This document shows, one piece after another, positions 66 through 13,093 of a stretch of DNA of 24,391 nucleotides (position 1 is the first letter of the stretch; every line of letters begins with the position of its first letter). The translations under genes and the position numbers were made by a program. The DNA is from a virus, in the IMG/VR virus record IMGVR_UViG_3300046692_000116, positions 1 through 24,391 of that record. One strand, 5' to 3'. A model generated the notes under the pieces. The model ran no database searches, was not told the origin of the DNA, and saw nothing but the letters and a program-made list of their open reading frames with translations.

Positions 66-437
66 TCACATCAATTCAATCGGGTATCCATCGACGCCGT
101 AGGTCACGACCTTGTGGCCGTGGTCTATCATCTGCTTAGCGCTGTCATGGTGGTGTTTGCATAGCGACTGCAGGTTTGAAGGATCGAAGAATAGATCCAT
201 GTCGCCGTTGTGCTTGCGGATATGGTCGACGACCGTTGCGGCCGTGACTTCCTCGGTGATGAGGCAGAACCTGCACAGCGGCTCAATGCTCAACTGCGCA
301 TCACGCATGGTGCGCCATCGCTTGCCATTATAAAGGCGCCTATAGAGGCGCGCATCGGCACTGCGGTAGTCTGAACTGGTTGCGGGAGCTGGACTTGAAC
401 CAGCGACCTTCAGCTTATGAGGCTGACGAGCTACCAT
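66..437 (-). CDS. HNH endonuclease, start uncertain
   Basis: The C-terminal 90 residues form an HNH nuclease domain: a PLCRFC cysteine pair, VVDH (first His), a central NLQSLC (Asn) and CKHHHD (last His plus metal ligands). The order and spacing match the short phage HNH proteins that usually sit beside terminase genes and assist packaging-site cleavage, which suggests the packaging module lies just left of the window. The domain normally includes the preceding segment ARLYRRLYNGKRWR, so the internal ATG at 308 is probably too late. However, no ATG, GTG or TTG lies in frame between that segment and the end of the tRNA-Met gene. The only upstream ATG (437) is inside the tRNA. Either translation starts in the tRNA precursor, a non-canonical start is used, or the gene lost its start. 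The domain call is firm; the 5' end is not. Confidence 0.75.
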   Translation of the reverse strand: MVARQPHKLKVAGSSPAPATSSDYRSADARLYRRLYNGKRWRTMRDAQLSIEPLCRFCLITEEVTAATVVDHIRKHNGDMDLFFDPSNLQSLCKHHHDSAKQMIDHGHKVVTYGVDGYPIELM

Positions 438-453
438 GCTGCTCTATCCCGCA
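377..453 (-). tRNA. tRNA-Met or tRNA-Ile2 (anticodon CAU)
   Basis: A full cloverleaf can be folded on the minus strand: acceptor UGCGGGA/UCCCGCA, D-stem GAGC/GCUC, anticodon stem UCAGC/GCUGA with loop CUCAUAA, T-stem GCUGG/CCAGC with loop UUCAAGU, then discriminator A and an encoded CCA. It lacks the three G-C anticodon-stem pairs of initiator tRNA, so it is an elongator Met or a lysidine-modified Ile tRNA. Confidence 0.95.
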
Positions 454-456
454 AAT

Positions 457-534
457 TGGTCTGTGTGGTTGGATTTGAACCAACGACTCCCGCAGTCCAA
501 GTGCGGTACTCTGGCCAGGCTGAGCTACACACAG
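457..534 (-). tRNA. tRNA-Pro (anticodon UGG)
   Basis: Acceptor CUGUGUG/CACACAG, anticodon stem CCGCA/UGCGG with loop CUUGGAC (anticodon UGG), T-stem GUUGG/CCAAC and encoded ACCA. It reads CCA and, by wobble, other Pro codons. It is separated from the previous tRNA gene by 3 bases, so the two are very likely processed from one transcript. Confidence 0.95.
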
Positions 535-538
535 GTAT

Positions 539-614
539 TGGAGCCGACAGCAGGAATCGAACCCGCGACATCCGAATTACAAAGACGGCGCTCTTCCTTC
601 TGAGCTATGTCGGC
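539..614 (-). tRNA. tRNA-Thr (anticodon UGU), weak anticodon stem
   Basis: Acceptor GCCGACA/UGUCGGC, D-stem GCUC/GAGC, T-stem GCGGG/CCUGC with loop UUCGAUU, discriminator U and encoded CCA. The anticodon loop UUUGUAA gives UGU (Thr, ACA). The anticodon stem CCGUC/UUCGG pairs only at the three outer positions; the two pairs next to the loop are U-U and C-U mismatches, which is unusual for a functional tRNA. Confidence 0.88.
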
Positions 615-619
615 TGAAT

Positions 620-705
620 TGGCGGAAGGCTGAGGAGTCGAACCCCTGACCTTGCGGTCCCCTCGGTTTTCAAGACCGATTGCCAGCCACTCAGCGGCGC
701 CTTCC
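620..705 (-). tRNA. tRNA-Ser (anticodon UGA)
   Basis: Acceptor GGAAGGC/GCCUUCC, anticodon stem UCGGU/ACCGA with loop CUUGAAA (anticodon UGA), the long variable arm expected of a class II Ser tRNA, a T-arm with UUCGACU loop, discriminator G and encoded CCA. It reads UCA. Confidence 0.95.
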
Positions 706-708
706 AAA

Positions 709-794
709 TGGCGGATAGTGATGGGGTCGAACCATCGGAACCTTTCGGTTCTACAGTTTAGCAAACTGCTGCATTGCCACTCTGCCAACTATCC
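709..794 (-). tRNA. tRNA-Ser (anticodon GCU)
   Basis: Acceptor GGAUAGU/ACUAUCC, anticodon arm CAGU/ACUG with loop UUGCUAA (anticodon GCU), a long variable arm with GAACC/GGUUC pairing, T-loop UUCGACC, discriminator G and encoded CCA. It reads AGC/AGU. It is the first tRNA of the five-gene array in the direction of transcription. Confidence 0.95.
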
Positions 795-796
795 AT

Positions 797-852
797 AAAA
801 CCAAAAGCGGCGAGGAGGCACCCGGTTTATCTTCCGGACCTCAACTCGCCGC
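797..852 (-). terminator. Strong compound hairpin with U-tract
   Basis: On the minus strand, GCGGCGAG (852-845) pairs with CTCGCCGC (814-807). Inside that, GAGG pairs with CCTC and CCGG with CCGG around an A-rich loop. The hairpin is followed directly by TTTTGGTTTT. This has the form of an intrinsic terminator and lies 3 bases before the first tRNA gene, so it would end any transcript arriving from the gene-free region upstream. Confidence 0.65.
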
Positions 853-1380
853 ACGATCGCCAGTCGCCGGAGGAGGCAGCGCCAGGCAATGGGGAATGAT
901 GTGGTGGACAAGCAAGGTGGCAACGATTACCAACTAAATGCTGGCATGGCATCGACTTACGTCTTGGAGTATCCACCATTGACGGCGCAACCCGTCACTA
1001 CAACGTGCTTTTCTAGATGCGGAGCTACACGCATAACCGCTTTAGTATCGTGGTGCGCATAAAGGCCGCAGCCAACATGCTTCGATCCTTTCGATCTCCT
1101 GCCACATAATGGTCAGTCAAACGATCGCCTGCCCCATACCATGGACCCCTGAGCAGGTAGGCGGTGCGTTTATAGTCCGCCGACACACCACGAATAAGTT
1201 TGATGTGGGCATATCGCCGATCGGCAGCAGTTCGCGCTACAGCCGCAACACATCAAATAGTTACCCGCTCGTTCAGCGGCTGCACCGAATGCAGCATGAC
1301 GGCGGGGCGGTCGCAACCGCAACTCTTTGCGGGATGTTTCCATCCCTCTCATAAGAGTACGCAGCAACGACGCACGATAA
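797..1380 (-). ncRNA. Candidate large structured noncoding RNA
   Basis: These 584 bases hold no convincing gene, yet the minus strand is packed with local and long-range helices: GGGATG/CATCCC closing a GAAA loop (1331-1346); GCAA/TTGC (1319-1330); GCTGCA/TGCAGC (1279-1295); CCGCT/AGCGG (1265-1279); a perfect 9-bp TTTGATGTG/CACATCAAA (1199-1257) enclosing the palindrome GCCGATCGGC; GGCGG/CCGCC (1160-1181); GACGG/CCGTC (981-996); and TGGTGGA/TCCACCA (902-978) enclosing a GAC/GTC stem with a GUAA loop. It ends in the terminator at 797-852. Two GNRA loops exist only in the minus-strand reading, the same strand as the adjacent tRNAs. GOLLD and ROOL RNAs are large ornate phage RNAs often found beside tRNA arrays; size and context fit, but I cannot align this sequence to either. 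The 5' end is not resolved. Confidence 0.5.
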
Positions 1381-2310
1381 TTAAGCCGCTCGTAAGTTTT
1401 TTCTATTCCTGATGGATGAAAGGATTTCGGCGATTCCTATAAGGGCACTCTTACCGGCCGCTATGGCCGAACCTTCATCATGGCCAAGCAACAGGCCAAT
1501 CGACTTGAGCGTGCCACGAGCCGCAACCTCCTCGATTACGACGGTTGCATTGCTTGTGGGTGCGTCTGGCTGATCCCACATCAGGGCTCCGCTAGATGAG
1601 TTTCCGGATGGGTTAGACACACCACCAAGAAAGATCGCGCCATCAGCAACGACCGTTGGGCACAGCGTCACACCATAGGGCAACTGGCTGGCCTTGACGC
1701 CGCCGTCGACGCCTAGAAAGCTAAGTACGGCTCTTGCCGCCTCCACACCCGGCAATGGGTCGTACATGGACGCAAGTACTGGCTGGCCAGATAGTGGCCG
1801 GTGATAGTGTTCAGCAGCCATGGGTGACGGCGTGGTAGCTTTTGTGGCAAGGTAGAAGAGCGGCGAGCGCGTCTTGTTCTCTTTGCTTTCCGTGCTGCGT
1901 GGTCTGTCTGTCGGCTTGAGCTTCTTGCCCTTCCTGGTCATTCCCCACTCGATGAGGCGTCCGCTGAGGAAACGCAATGCGCCAATCGATACACGGCGCT
2001 CTGTTTCGTAGATTGGTGAAAGCTGATTTCCATCCTCATCATGCGAAGCCTTCATCAGCTCGCCGATGGTGGGGCGGATTTCCTGCCGTGTTGGCTCGAC
2101 ATCGACAAACCAATCAGTGGAGCGCCGTGGCAGCGCGTCGGCGAACGCTTGCGCTAGGTCTGGATGATTGTCCCACAGCCAGCGCAGGGCCGGCAGCGTG
2201 CCACGGTAATGCGGCTCGCGTGGCTTGCGCTGTGGAATGTTATCGTTGGCGGCGACTGGCCGCTGTTTGATGGCGACTAGTTGCTCGGCAATCGACCCGT
2301 GTCTGGCCAT
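1381..2310 (-). CDS. Hypothetical protein, 309 aa
   Basis: I do not recognise a family. I place the start at the ATG at 2310 because it overlaps the upstream stop as TGATG and has GGAG about 11 bases upstream; a longer reading to 2367 would run 57 bases back into the neighbour. The protein is soluble-looking, has an early PVAANDN motif (see the NDN finding), a basic segment (KGKKLKPTDR) near residue 150, and a Gly/Ser-rich C-terminal half with no membrane segments. It is the last protein gene before the gene-free region and tRNAs, and it is translationally coupled to the 2310-2645 gene. Confidence 0.75.
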   Translation of the reverse strand: MARHGSIAEQLVAIKQRPVAANDNIPQRKPREPHYRGTLPALRWLWDNHPDLAQAFADALPRRSTDWFVDVEPTRQEIRPTIGELMKASHDEDGNQLSPIYETERRVSIGALRFLSGRLIEWGMTRKGKKLKPTDRPRSTESKENKTRSPLFYLATKATTPSPMAAEHYHRPLSGQPVLASMYDPLPGVEAARAVLSFLGVDGGVKASQLPYGVTLCPTVVADGAIFLGGVSNPSGNSSSGALMWDQPDAPTSNATVVIEEVAARGTLKSIGLLLGHDEGSAIAAGKSALIGIAEILSSIRNRKNLRAA

Positions 2311-2645
2311 CAGATACCAAGCTCCGCTTTTCGACGACGAATTAACGCCTCTTCTTTTTTGATCCACTCAAGCGCCGCTTGCCGTTCAGTTCGTTCCCGC
2401 ACCTCGGCCTCTTCATGAGTCTCCATGCGGCTATACGTGATGCCGACACGGTCGTAAGTTTCCCCGTGCTCCCAATACGGAGAGAAATCCACCTCTGCGG
2501 ATGCTCGATACTCACTTGGGATTTCCATCAGCGCTTCCTGAAGGATGGCGATTGCTTCGGTAAGATTGCGTGGTGGGCTACTCACGGAGTGATAATCGTA
2601 TCCGTAGGTTCTTAGGGTAACCGTCTTCTCAACCGGCGTTGCCAT
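2310..2645 (-). CDS. Hypothetical protein, 111 aa
   Basis: No family recognised. The N-terminal two thirds are mixed (a TLRTYGYDYHS segment, then an acidic region). The C-terminal 40 residues are highly charged and likely form one long helix (EEAEVRERTERQAALEWIKK). The gene is first in its transcription unit: a consensus-like promoter overlapping a 16-bp operator lies 40-65 bases upstream, and its leader carries CACCAC followed by GAGGAGA before the ATG. The downstream gene starts on its stop codon (TGATG). Confidence 0.8.
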   Translation of the reverse strand: MATPVEKTVTLRTYGYDYHSVSSPPRNLTEAIAILQEALMEIPSEYRASAEVDFSPYWEHGETYDRVGITYSRMETHEEAEVRERTERQAALEWIKKEEALIRRRKAELGI

Positions 2646-2683: not shown

Positions 2684-2712
2684 AACTTATGCTATTTTGA
2701 CAAATTTGTCAA
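2684..2712 (-). promoter_or_regulatory. Leftward promoter with operator palindrome (copy 3)
   Basis: The perfect palindrome TTGACAAATTTGTCAA occupies 2697-2712. Read leftward, its first six bases are a consensus -35 (TTGACA), followed after 17 bases by TAAGTT as the -10. The same geometry is seen at 10635-10663 and 20956-20984. The palindrome lies inside the 3' end of the 2687-3244 coding region, so it also encodes residues near that protein's C-terminus. Confidence 0.75.
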
Positions 2713-3244
2713 GATTGTCGTTGGCGGCCGCAGCAAGCCAACCGCGGACTAGTGCGACAGTACGCGCTGCGGCTTCCGCCTCGGTGCACACGCGCAACGT
2801 GACGACAGGATGCCCCAGCGCTGCCAACAAGGGGTGGCGCACCTTCTGGCTATCCGTAAGCACACCTTCTGCGTTCTTGTACTCGATGAGGCGCAACTCT
2901 CCGCCAGGCAGATAGACGCGAAGATCTGGGTCGCCTGCCGCAATGCCGGTTGCCTTGGCTTTCATGCTCTCGTTGCGACTACGGCGACCTGCGTTCATGT
3001 CGCCGGCAATGGTGAATGACTTGCGGCCAATCTTGTCGTGGTCAGCTACGGCTTCAGCGTTGGCCGCATATTCCGGCATGGCGCGAAGAGCGCGCACCGC
3101 CGACGCCTGGAGCACCCATTCTTCGACGGGGGCGCTGGTTACCTTGACGCTCGTGCCGCCGGCCGATATCGTCGTTACGATCCTGACGCGCTTGCCTGCG
3201 ATGCGAGTCGTTTGGGTGGTGGTTTTTGCTTTGGACTTTTTCAT
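2687..3244 (-). CDS. VRR-NUC-type nuclease
   Basis: The 185-residue protein carries the VRR-NUC signature of the PD-(D/E)XK superfamily in its second half: GDPDLRVYL (catalytic Asp), LRLIEYKNAEG (the E-x-K pair), then LTDSQK and a following LLAALGHPVVTLRV strand. Members act as structure-specific or Holliday-junction-type nucleases and are common in phage replication modules. The N-terminal 80 residues are basic and low in recognisable motifs. I chose the ATG at 3244 because it is preceded by GGAGG at good spacing; the longer reading adds 11 residues without a ribosome site. The tail reads AAAANDN then a Lys-rich end encoded by the operator palindrome. It follows the iteron array and the Prim-Pol gene, which fits a role in processing replication intermediates. 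Confidence 0.8.
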   Translation of the reverse strand: MKKSKAKTTTQTTRIAGKRVRIVTTISAGGTSVKVTSAPVEEWVLQASAVRALRAMPEYAANAEAVADHDKIGRKSFTIAGDMNAGRRSRNESMKAKATGIAAGDPDLRVYLPGGELRLIEYKNAEGVLTDSQKVRHPLLAALGHPVVTLRVCTEAEAAARTVALVRGWLAAAANDNLDKFVKIA

Positions 3245-3264
3245 TTCAAAATCCCTCCAAGCAC

Positions 3265-3408
3265 CCATACAAACCATACACCCTAAAGGGTGTGTATGGA
3301 ATGTATGGCTAGATGCTCACTGATTTGTATGGTTTGTATGGCTGTCTGTATGGTTTGTATGGATGCCATACATTCCATACATGTATGGATTTTGTCTGGT
3401 TTGTATGG
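3265..3408. repeat. Iteron-like array of TGTATGG, candidate replication origin
   Basis: Twelve copies of the heptamer TGTATGG or its complement CCATACA lie in 144 bases. They start at 3265, 3274, 3293, 3302, 3326, 3335, 3347, 3356, 3366, 3375, 3382 and 3402. Most occur as pairs spaced exactly 9 bases apart, and both orientations occur. Near one end is the dyad ACACCC/GGGTGT around TAAA (3278-3294). The array lies directly after the Prim-Pol/helicase gene in an otherwise tightly packed operon. Clustered short direct repeats beside a replication initiator are typical of iteron origins; multiple binding sites for a regulator are the alternative. Confidence 0.65.
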
Positions 3409-3409
3409 C

Positions 3410-5548
3410 CTATAGCGGCCACACCAAATTGCCATTTTCGGCCACAAGTTCACGCTTTATGAGGGCCTTTTTTATCCGCATGAAGTTGGTCTGTTTCGTC
3501 CCCTGCGGCGTGCCTGGCTTCGTCAAATCGTAACGATCATAGACAGCTTCACGCCAGTCATTTTCTCGTACGACCATGATGTCGTCTGGGTATCTTGGCC
3601 CCGGTGGGCTATCCACACCGACGGTATGCTGCAACTCGCGAAGGATCTCCAGCGCCTCGGCTTCCTTCTTCCCTGCCTTGGCAACCAGATGCTCGCCGGC
3701 CGTTGGTTCTGCCGCGACGACCACGGGCGCCGTGGTGGGCTCTCCGTCCTCATCTACACCGATCTGTACCGACTTCATGGTGAAGGCTAGCACGTCGCCT
3801 TCCTCGCCATCGTTGGTGCCATCGCAGACAAGCCTATGCCTGCCGCCATCTTTTTTGACCATGAAGGACGCGTCCACAGCACCATCTAGATCGATAGCGC
3901 CCTTCCCTCGCTCGCCGCTCCACGAGCTGTGGTGGATCGCTGTGACGTGCGCTTTTGTCTCGGTAAGAATGTGGTCGCACGACCTGACAAACTTCACCAT
4001 GTCCTTGGATGCGTTCTGGTCGCCAGCACCGAAGACGCGCGTCAGTGTGTCGACGATCACCCAGACACATTTGTGGCCGGTGATGGTCTCTGCGTCCCTG
4101 ATGATCTTGATGACCTCTTCTGCGTCCTTTTGGTCGCGGGTGAAGTCAAGCATACCGCCCATGACAAGCAACGGCACGTCTTTGACGCCATGGTGCTTTC
4201 GGAACGCCATCATGCGTCGCTCAGTGAGCTTCTTACGCTCCGCCGCGACATAGACCACCAAGCCCTGCTGAACCTTGATACCGTGCCAATCCATGCCTGC
4301 TGCTATGTGGCACGCCAGATCGGTAGCAACGACGCTCTTGCCGGTTCCTGGCAGCCCTGAGATGGTGGTGAACTCACCAACACCTAGCCATCCTTTGAGG
4401 ATCGTCTCTTTGGGCTTTCCTTCCTCGATCTCATCGAACCACGTCAGATCGAATCGTTCACGCTTTTTTGGCGTGGTGGTCTCGGTGGCTGGTTGGGCTG
4501 CAGGTTGGGCTGCAGGTTGGGCAGATGCAGCCGCCTCCTTGGCCTTGGCGCGCTCTACGAATGCCGCTACGTCGGCGGGGTCTGAACCGTTGTCGTTGTC
4601 GTGCGACCGATCTGGTATTTGCCGCGGAGAATTGGCCGTCTTGTCCAGGCCTCGTTTAATCTTGTCAACGCACTTGCGCTCACCATCGGTGGCAATGAGT
4701 CCATTTGCGCTTGCCGCATCGATAAGACCAGCCTCAGCCTCGCTTCGACTTAGGTGGCCAGCGGCCACGAGCTCGCCTATGGAACACGCGCTGGCGAATA
4801 GTTGCTGGCCACGCTGGCCTTTTGGCGCTGTCGATAGCTTGGTGAGTTCCATGTCCATGGCTTTGGCCGCATAGCGTGCTGCACCTGTGTCTTCTGGCTG
4901 GTATGTGTATTCTCTCGGTTTGGATTCGGCGATAGGTGCCGACTTAGTGATGACCATATCAATAAGCCATGCTGGCGCATCTGCGAATTCGGGCATACCG
5001 TCGTCATCGTGGTTGATCCACTCATATCGTCGGCCGTCCGCCATGACGCTGCCAGGACCGACGATATAGCCGCCGTCCCCTCGAGTATCGACGCCAGGCG
5101 CGATAGCAGCACGATTGCGCACGCCGTCAACATGCTTGAACATGATGTGTGTGCCGCCGTTTGCCGTGGTGGCTCTGGCTGTTGGCGGCAATGGGCCATG
5201 CCTGGCTTCCATCTCGGCAAGCCATTTGTGGCCGTCACGATCGCCATGGCGATCTAAGTCAAGAACCCACACGCCTAGCGGGCTGCCTGTTGGCAAGCCT
5301 ATTAGCGCTGATGGATGGCGTTCGTTGAACCATATATCAATGATGCGGCTGGACCGCGTTGCATCATTTAGGCCAAATGAAGTATATGGAGCTTTTTCGA
5401 GGAACTCGATGATTTCGCCTGTGGCGTGGTCGATACCCTCGCTTGCTTGTTCACGGCAGGGGAAAACAGCAATGCCCGCAGCAATATAGCTACGGGCAAC
5501 GTCGAGAGGTGTGCGTGTGTTGGCGGGTAGTTTGAATGGTTGTGGCAT
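3410..5548 (-). CDS. Prim-Pol and RepA-like helicase fusion
   Basis: The 712-residue protein joins two replication enzymes. Residues about 15-200 match bifunctional primase-polymerase (Prim-Pol): a VLDLD catalytic Asp pair at 97 and 99, TANGGTH at 128-134 and a VDTRGDGGYIVGPGS stretch near 153. Residues about 385-600 are a RecA-fold ATPase of the AAA_25/RepA-helicase kind, with Walker A GLPGTGKS (398-405), Walker B VWVIVD (Asp 500), and a later AIHHSSW segment. An Ala/Gln/Pro linker with tandem repeats joins them, and a winged-helix-like C-terminus (residues 640-712) follows. It would prime and unwind phage DNA. The ATG at 5548 has GGGAGG just upstream. An iteron-like array begins two bases past the stop, so it may also be the origin-binding initiator. 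Confidence 0.9.
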   Translation of the reverse strand: MPQPFKLPANTRTPLDVARSYIAAGIAVFPCREQASEGIDHATGEIIEFLEKAPYTSFGLNDATRSSRIIDIWFNERHPSALIGLPTGSPLGVWVLDLDRHGDRDGHKWLAEMEARHGPLPPTARATTANGGTHIMFKHVDGVRNRAAIAPGVDTRGDGGYIVGPGSVMADGRRYEWINHDDDGMPEFADAPAWLIDMVITKSAPIAESKPREYTYQPEDTGAARYAAKAMDMELTKLSTAPKGQRGQQLFASACSIGELVAAGHLSRSEAEAGLIDAASANGLIATDGERKCVDKIKRGLDKTANSPRQIPDRSHDNDNGSDPADVAAFVERAKAKEAAASAQPAAQPAAQPATETTTPKKRERFDLTWFDEIEEGKPKETILKGWLGVGEFTTISGLPGTGKSVVATDLACHIAAGMDWHGIKVQQGLVVYVAAERKKLTERRMMAFRKHHGVKDVPLLVMGGMLDFTRDQKDAEEVIKIIRDAETITGHKCVWVIVDTLTRVFGAGDQNASKDMVKFVRSCDHILTETKAHVTAIHHSSWSGERGKGAIDLDGAVDASFMVKKDGGRHRLVCDGTNDGEEGDVLAFTMKSVQIGVDEDGEPTTAPVVVAAEPTAGEHLVAKAGKKEAEALEILRELQHTVGVDSPPGPRYPDDIMVVRENDWREAVYDRYDLTKPGTPQGTKQTNFMRIKKALIKRELVAENGNLVWPL
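4491..4522. repeat. 12-bp tandem repeat encoding the AQPA linker
   Basis: GGTTGGGCTGCA is repeated two and two-thirds times in a row. It encodes the flexible Ala-Gln-Pro linker between the primase and helicase halves of the 3410-5548 protein, so copy-number change would alter linker length in frame. Confidence 0.9.
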
Positions 5549-12432: not shown

Positions 12433-12605
12433 CAAGCCGCCTCGCTGCGTGCCTGAGTGGCCGCATCGATCTGCGCCAATCTAATCGCGTTCTCGCGCAC
12501 GACGATCCAGCCAGCAGCGCGCAGTGCGGCTAGCTGCTCGACGGTGATGATGTCGCGCGGGTGTTTGGCGCCGGTGGCGACAACGGCCCGTACAGCCACA
12601 CTCAT
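12432..12605 (-). CDS. Hypothetical protein, 57 aa
   Basis: A 57-residue reading frame fills the gap between the sigma-like and helicase genes exactly, with ATGA overlap at its start and TGATG overlap at its end. This tight coupling is the main evidence that it is real. The sequence has an Ala/Val-rich start and a TVEQLAALRAAGWIVV segment that could form a small helix-turn-helix or other helical fold. I recognise no family. Confidence 0.7.
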   Translation of the reverse strand: MSVAVRAVVATGAKHPRDIITVEQLAALRAAGWIVVRENAIRLAQIDAATQARSEAA

Positions 12606-13093
12606 GCCGCAGCCCTCAACCGCAACCGCTCCTTCTCGGTGATCTGCCGCGCACGCTCACGGCCAACGCCAATTCTCGCGCCGATCTGCTCTAGTGTGTC
12701 GCCCATGGCGCGCCGCAACAACGCACGGCCGCCACGGCCAGACATGTCAGCAAGTGTCGACGACAGTTCTGCACACTTTTCCTGCTCTGGCTGCACGGCG
12801 CAGTTAAGCATGGCGCGCTCGTCGGATACGGTTGGCATGTAGCTTGAGCGCAATTGCGCCTTGCGCCGGCAGTTCTGTGCGACATGCCGCATGCATAGGG
12901 TGATCCAGTTATAAAAGCCGCCATCGGGACGGAACGACGTCCAATGGCTAAGGACATATGCAATGGTGTCCTGCATCAGGTCTTCCTGCTCCGTCCTGCT
13001 GTTCGTTAGCTTGTATGCGAGCCGGCGCAGATGCGGATAATAGCTCATCAGGCGCGCGTCGAATTCGGGCGGACGTTGTGCGGTGGTGGTCAT
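12602..13093 (-). CDS. Sigma-70-family (ECF-like) sigma factor
   Basis: The 163-residue protein has the two domains of a small sigma factor. Region 2 spans about residues 15-80, with LRRLAYKLTNSRTEQEDLMQDT matching the core-binding 2.1-2.2 helices, and WITLCMRHVAQNCRRK fitting 2.4. Region 4 spans about 115-160: LEQIGARIGVGRERARQITEK is a clear region 4.2 helix-turn-helix that would contact a -35 element. Phage sigma factors redirect host polymerase to later promoters. I cannot see a matching promoter family in this window. It leads a transcription unit: its leader has CACCAC, GAGGAGAC and an upstream hairpin. No anti-sigma gene is adjacent. Confidence 0.82.
   Translation of the reverse strand: MTTTAQRPPEFDARLMSYYPHLRRLAYKLTNSRTEQEDLMQDTIAYVLSHWTSFRPDGGFYNWITLCMRHVAQNCRRKAQLRSSYMPTVSDERAMLNCAVQPEQEKCAELSSTLADMSGRGGRALLRRAMGDTLEQIGARIGVGRERARQITEKERLRLRAAA

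Follow-up and report, generated by a model that had tools for sequence, protein, structure and literature searches.

We found that the 24,391-nt stretch of viral DNA analyzed here (IMG/VR record IMGVR_UViG_3300046692_000116, positions 1 to 24,391; hereafter the window) encodes a member of what is almost certainly a conserved family of structured RNAs, associated nearly always with phages and prophages of Rhizobiaceae. The family is undescribed: it is absent from Rfam 15, and no account of it was found in the open-licence literature searched. Its members consist of a conserved 5' and a conserved 3' domain, recognized by the covariance models R1 and R2, respectively, and a variable middle (Table 1). 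On the minus strand of the window, which itself is one of the sequences used to build both models, R1 matches positions 1359-1258 with 111 bits and R2 positions 898-797 with 86 bits. The preliminary description had reported the whole span 797-1380; the RNA fills 1359-797 and, given these bounds, the first ~20 bases of that span are probably a spacer after the upstream gene. Only short and overlapping ORFs occur at 797-1380, in agreement with the earlier view that the span holds no plausible gene. A conserved peptide, an outcome that would have spoken against an RNA, was also rejected: the 5' domain varies in length from 93 to 121 nt, with all three phases represented among the relatives, and ORF matches between loci fall on both strands and in several frames, so that no common reading frame is kept. 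Covariation among ~60 relatives strongly supports the large structured RNA that had been postulated next to the tRNA array.

Table 1. Position and structure of the RNA and of its neighboring genes in the window.
Feature	Position	Strand	Description
Whole RNA	797..1359	minus	563 nt, 5' end at 1359; outer limits given by the two covariance models
Conserved 5' domain	1258..1359	minus	~100 nt, ends in GUAACUA; R1 match, covariation
P1	1358-1353/1327-1322	minus	encloses the P1a hairpin after a conserved UGA
P1a	1346-1341/1336-1331	minus	GAAA loop
P2	1320-1316/1311-1307	minus	helix of the 5' domain
P3	1306-1299/1272-1264	minus	internal motif AUGC...GCCGCUGA around P3a
P3a	1295-1290/1284-1279	minus	within P3
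Tail UAACUA	1263-1258	minus	single-stranded
Module A	1199..1257	minus	three-way junction closed by a 9-bp helix, 1257-1249/1207-1199
Module B	1044..1196	minus	outer helix UCGUGGUG/CACCACGA
Local domain	902..978	minus	closed by the 7-bp helix UGGUGGA/UCCACCA (902-908/972-978); in predicted folds
Conserved 3' domain	797..898	minus	~95 nt; R2 match, covariation
Hairpin AUUGCC/GGCGAU	890-885/861-856	minus	exposes CUCCUC at 875-870
Terminal stem	852-845/814-807	minus	UU bulge at 844-843, followed by an interrupted U run
Five tRNA genes (Ser-GCU, Ser-UGA, Thr-UGU, Pro-UGG, Met-CAU)	377..794	minus	ARAGORN and Rfam
HNH endonuclease gene	66..366	minus	PHROG HNH endonuclease, 7.5e-29; synteny
Upstream gene	1381..2367	minus	328 aa, C-terminal helix-turn-helix-like motif; synteny, alignment of relatives

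Relatives of the RNA were gathered by searches with the upstream protein, by pattern scans for the first conserved patch in viral and genome contigs, and with models R1 and R2, which together yielded ~60 distinct sequences, including those of the named phages Sinorhizobium phage AP-16-3, NV1.1.1 and RHph_TM3_3_14B. When phages and plasmids were searched by BLAST, the region yielded short conserved patches only, and the tRNA-bearing form almost exclusively tRNA-Met genes. Among the relatives found through the upstream protein, one patch follows the upstream gene and another precedes the tRNAs, the middle being largely unrelated. Both domains lie on the same strand in all 57 loci compared (54 of them distinct), and the total length ranges from 141 to 730 nt with a median of 366 nt; the lowest value stems from a partial R2 match (L118), and the shortest RNA with a full-length R2 match has 219 nt. 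Matches to the 3' domain without an R1 match were obtained for L008, L010, L124 and several Rhizobiaceae genomes. On the Sinorhizobium americanum plasmid represented by L010, a second copy of the 3' domain (L010:483-577, 44 bits) was seen near apparent prophage remnants. In a genome search, R1 matched 14 of 395 genomes from the family of a Rhizobium, 2 of 397 from the order and 1 of 289 from the class, the order and class matches being genomes already found in the family sample; these counts are lower bounds, as strict filters lose weak matches.

The evidence for a selected RNA fold comes from covariation, which was found in both end domains. Among 53 distinct sequences of the 5' domain, both partners have changed in 28 of 31 pairs, the middle C-G to G-C change of the P3 core included, and the covariation score is 0.433, whereas shuffles reach 0.148 and slid partners no more than 0.113. 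Among 52 distinct sequences of the 3' domain, both partners have changed in 7 of 14 pairs, and the score is 0.219, with slid partners giving no more than 0.043. Both alignments depend on the models, and relatedness among the sequences raises the counts, a bias that is partly addressed by the slid controls and by an independent MAFFT alignment of 21 sequences of the 5' domain, in which the score is 0.276 versus at most 0.116. Reading the sequences also indicated that the CCC/GGG core of P3 is changed jointly to CGC/GCG in L122 and L123.

The preliminary description had placed the fold on the tRNA strand, which is supported by the pairs and not by the energy. Read on the minus strand, G-U pairs exceed A-C mismatches in P3 and P3a taken together (28 versus 1), in P1a (28 versus 5) and in the 3' domain (37 versus 12); no such excess was seen in P1 and P2, both of which are poorly aligned. 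This one-sided excess identifies the minus strand, i.e., that of the tRNA genes, as the RNA strand. It also disfavors a reading of the region as a DNA cruciform or packaging site. Folding energy, in turn, was rejected as a strand test. Compared with dinucleotide shuffles, the region folds with z = -2.90 on the minus and z = -3.38 on the plus strand; since both strands beat the shuffles, energy alone shows neither strand nor function.

Beyond its helices, the 5' domain is marked by the terminal GUAACUA, which is retained even in the variant domains of Rhizobium phage 16-3, RHph_X2_25 and the genome locus L145, where P3 is a plain hairpin. A switch in which the 5' strand of P2 pairs upstream of P1 instead was seen in the window and several groups and is missing elsewhere; we do not claim it as a conserved feature.

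The 3' domain is conserved beyond the needs of a terminator. The CUCCUC sequence is kept in all 60 distinct 3' domains listed, and the terminal stem of the relatives carries a two-base bulge, mostly UU. The bulged GUUGAG/CUCC helix exists in both orders: a script placed GUUGAG on the 5' side in 21 domains and on the 3' side in 18, and of the other 21, missed by the script, most read by eye as CCC...GGUUGAG, i.e., the second order. No consistent complement of CUCCUC was recognized by eye in the purine-rich strand of P1a, and a pairing between the two was dismissed. In the window, the terminal hairpin with its interrupted T runs (CGCCGC-TTTT-GG-TTTT) stops 3 bases before tRNA-Ser; because of its long loop, it was not found by a simple terminator scan. 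The hairpin thus lies where a strong terminator 3 bases from the tRNAs had been postulated, a claim that is only partly right, since the scan missed the hairpin and the U-run is gone in several relatives (e.g., L110, L111 and L116), in which the stem is still kept.

The middle of the RNA spans 8-506 nt between the domains and is a mosaic of modules, tRNA-Met or inserted genes with a fixed orientation. Of the BLAST matches between middles, 386 of 387 are on the same strand, while the order may differ, as in L003 and L004, which share two common modules in reversed order; orientation being kept while order changes suggests that the modules are structured RNAs of their own. The two long-range helices noted in the preliminary description both lie in this part: the 9-bp helix TTTGATGTG/CACATCAAA, which closes module A, is exact, and the 7-bp helix of the local domain is present in the sequence as well as in the predicted folds. 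Module A, which carries a conserved AGCGCGA loop and the GGCGAUAUGCC hairpin, is found again in L047, L067 and L095, where it likewise adjoins the 5' domain, and its 9-bp helix shows one clear compensatory change in L047 (A-U to G-C). Module B recurs with 76% identity in L074, immediately behind the 5' domain, and in L059, at a distance of 181 nt downstream from that domain. A tRNA-Met(CAU) gene forms the middle or lies within it in 17 of 56 distinct RNAs, the window not among them. In most of these tRNAs, C at position 1 faces A at position 72 and the CCA is encoded, which we take to be features of initiator tRNA. Short genes were recognized by sequence reading in a few middles (L095, L112 and L009/L048). 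The L095 middle contains, at approximately 395-597 (+), a short ORF in the sense direction that has a good ribosome site (MLSVKVITTENREFIIQTERVLVDKDNG...), that of L009/L048 an apparent opposite-strand ORF, and that of L112 another apparent opposite-strand ORF (1025-1500, -) which by eye reads like a GIY-YIG endonuclease.

We determined by tblastn that, in loci with enough sequence, the genetic context follows a constant one-strand order: upstream protein, RNA, sometimes tRNAs, HNH, TerS and TerL. The HNH gene is the downstream neighbor in nearly all of these relatives; in the window it probably starts at about 366 or further in, as the long ORF would otherwise extend into tRNA-Met. Within the 432 kb around the 56 distinct RNAs, all tRNAs are situated inside the RNA or at most 1 kb downstream of it and on the same strand, in part because many loci are short. 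The upstream proteins (230-440 aa) fall into two hardly related families, and diverged terminases also occur. Both families end in a helix-turn-helix-like motif and match each other only insignificantly, yet at this very motif; a member of the second, p107 of phage 16-3, shows a weak match to sigma-70 region 4 (E 0.0013). Structure models of the two families are poor (pLDDT 54 and 47), and a profile search of the PDB found no solved homolog. We infer that the upstream gene encodes a putative late regulator. In phage 16-3, p107 is followed by a homing endonuclease gene, the RNA and then the HNH gene, with the annotated cos ~340 bp beyond the RNA. The annotated gene p109 of this phage (L120:2417-2719), an ORF that overlaps with the RNA and matches no family, is probably spurious.

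Several further features of these genomes were recorded. The window encodes a sigma-70-like factor at 12602-13093 (-; Pfam Sigma70_r2, 1.5e-12), a candidate for recognition of phage-specific late promoters, and, upstream of the RNA, has tandem TGTATGGTTTGTATGG-like repeats in the interval between two genes (3270-3415). AANDN occurs near the C-terminus of many proteins encoded by these phages (e.g., KRALLAANDNLAAAIKKYAA), among them the product of window 2687-3277 (-) and the upstream-gene relatives L079:4836-5750 and L116:1641-2588. The motif resembles the alphaproteobacterial tmRNA tag and is possibly a built-in degradation or C-terminal signal.

With regard to known RNAs, the preliminary description had left open whether the RNA is a new member of the GOLLD or ROOL type or a new class. 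Around the RNA, searches with Rfam 15 at gathering and permissive thresholds identified only tRNAs and a low-scoring ar14 match; the covariance models of GOLLD and ROOL matched neither the window, nor the region at E up to 10, nor the loci of 12 relatives, and membership in these two families is not supported. A new class is thus the better of the two options, and the family appears to fall, by covariance models, outside GOLLD and ROOL among the large structured phage RNAs beside tRNAs. It resembles both in size, phage origin, tRNA neighborhood and the tRNA in the linker. GOLLD and ROOL are found near phage tRNAs, and GOLLD, a large phage and prophage RNA with one conserved end region and a variable remainder, can hold tRNAs in its linkers (PMC12286853). 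Similarly, the rhizobial RNA is of phage or prophage origin and lies beside tRNAs, five of them downstream in the window, and the tRNAs within relatives are all tRNA-Met(CAU). In contrast to GOLLD, the rhizobial RNA is conserved at both ends, with the CUCCUC hairpin and the UU-bulged terminal hairpin, is mostly shorter (median 366 nt versus over 800 for many GOLLD RNAs) and is restricted to Rhizobiaceae phages as far as searched. With ROOL it shares phage origin, tRNA islands and, in its long members, size (563 nt in the window, 659 nt for ROOL env-120), and differs in its modular middle of variable length.

The weak ar14 score (RF02344, window 793-894) amounts to 17 bits with E 0.81 and does not reach the gathering score of 58.8. 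The ar14/cuckoo sRNAs of Rhizobiales (SmelA075 and relatives) nevertheless share with the phage RNA a CCUCCUC hairpin loop with a terminal hairpin behind it, and for sRNAs of Rhizobiales CCUCCUCCC loops have been described as anti-Shine-Dalgarno sequences (PMC3927594). These sRNAs, however, have three or four such hairpins, whereas there is a single one in the phage family, attached to a large RNA. Another comparison is offered by lambdoid phages, whose late control region comprises Q, pR', the 6S leader RNA and tR'; Q is just upstream of pR', and its product lets polymerase read through the terminator (PMC6266700). Like this region, the rhizobial RNA lies between a putative regulator gene and late genes and ends in a terminator-like hairpin; unlike it, the RNA is far more elaborate and conserved, its upstream proteins are not recognizably related to Q, and packaging rather than lysis genes follow.

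As for function, we tentatively favor, at somewhat less than an even chance, a late, stand-alone structural RNA acting on translation over a cis-acting leader. A separate RNA would be made at the head of the late transcription unit, end at its own terminal hairpin, accumulate late in infection and act as a folded product, as is thought for GOLLD and ROOL. Its two end domains would form the core, and the middle modules, the initiator-type tRNA included, would be interchangeable additions. Since CUCCUC matches the anti-Shine-Dalgarno end of 16S rRNA, the hairpin is proposed to direct the RNA to the ribosome or to mRNA start sites, shifting translation in the late phase, while the bulged GUUGAG/CUCC helix, in either orientation, may be the docking site of a partner. 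This reading is favored by the fact that the CUCCUC hairpin and the bulge motif are conserved even though some members have lost the U-run, by the structured modules and by the tRNAs inside or downstream on the same strand. A precedent is GOLLD, which has been reported to bind ribosomes in pull-downs (PMC12286853). On the other hand, RNase P would be expected to excise a functional middle tRNA and thereby to separate the two domains in those 17 relatives, coding genes occur in some middles, some of them apparently on the opposite strand, and the constant place before the packaging genes exceeds the need of a trans-acting RNA. Nor was a promoter-like site recognized upstream by a scan whose scope does not extend to rhizobial or phage promoters; its single weak match lies inside the RNA and is near chance. 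A more specific version, a new class of modular phage RNA in which the end domains hold swappable modules, an initiator tRNA among them, and the tRNA and structural RNA form one functional particle that engages the host ribosome via the anti-Shine-Dalgarno hairpin, seems rather unlikely.

A leader of the late operon acting in cis, like lambda Q-pR'-6S RNA-tR' or the put RNAs of HK022, is a distinct possibility, almost as likely as the stand-alone RNA, and the two readings are not exclusive. The upstream protein or the 5' domain could modify RNA polymerase so that the terminal hairpin is read through; transcription might then reach the tRNAs, HNH, terminase and late genes, and the middle could be a tolerant spacer. 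A leader is favored by the invariable location and by a middle that tolerates change: the one-strand gene order is kept despite two upstream families and diverged terminases, the RNA of phage 16-3 is close to cos, p107 has its weak sigma-70 match, variable middles with tRNA and genes suit a spacer, and the lambdoid arrangement offers a precedent. Yet antitermination elements are small, which leaves the CUCCUC hairpin, the two-order bulge motif and the fixed-orientation modules unexplained, and some 3' domains are without the U-run. The upstream proteins, with poor models and no solved homolog, cannot be called Q-like, their two families match only insignificantly, though at the same C-terminal motif, and in phage 16-3 the homing endonuclease gene separates p107 from the RNA. 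It is improbable that the locus encodes two separate small RNAs, one formed by the 5' domain and the other, at the 3' end, an anti-Shine-Dalgarno sRNA like cuckoo/ar14, which happen to flank a hot spot where tRNAs and small genes recombine. An excised middle tRNA would indeed separate the halves, some 3' domains match without R1, and there is the weak similarity to ar14; however, a variant P1/P2/P3 is visible by eye or script where R1 fails (16-3, RHph_X2_25 and L145), the domains co-occur on one strand in every locus compared, and the ar14 score is far below its gathering score. Least probable by far is a packaging RNA like the pRNA of phi29, acting at the adjoining terminase: the location just upstream of the HNH and terminase genes and near cos is in line with it, but would be expected of any late-region element, there is no sequence link to phi29 pRNA by Rfam matches, and a packaging motor would hardly accommodate RNAs that vary so much in length and carry tRNA inserts.

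Few large structured RNAs of phages are known and their functions are poorly understood; the present family adds one in a different phage group. Its minimal form is simple, comprising the 5' domain, a tRNA and the 3' domain in ~267 nt, and the occurrence of a variant in 16-3, a classical laboratory phage of Sinorhizobium meliloti, makes its function testable. The relatives also provide natural experiments, with module order swapped, the tRNA in or out and the bulge motif in either orientation, and raise the testable alternative that such RNAs beside phage tRNAs are late-operon leaders. Other structured RNAs were detected in the collected loci as well, namely an int-alpA RNA (Rfam, 39.5 bits) at L057:4032-4099, ~1 kb downstream of the RNA, and an ar35 sRNA match (52 bits) in a phage contig at L006:2599-2739.
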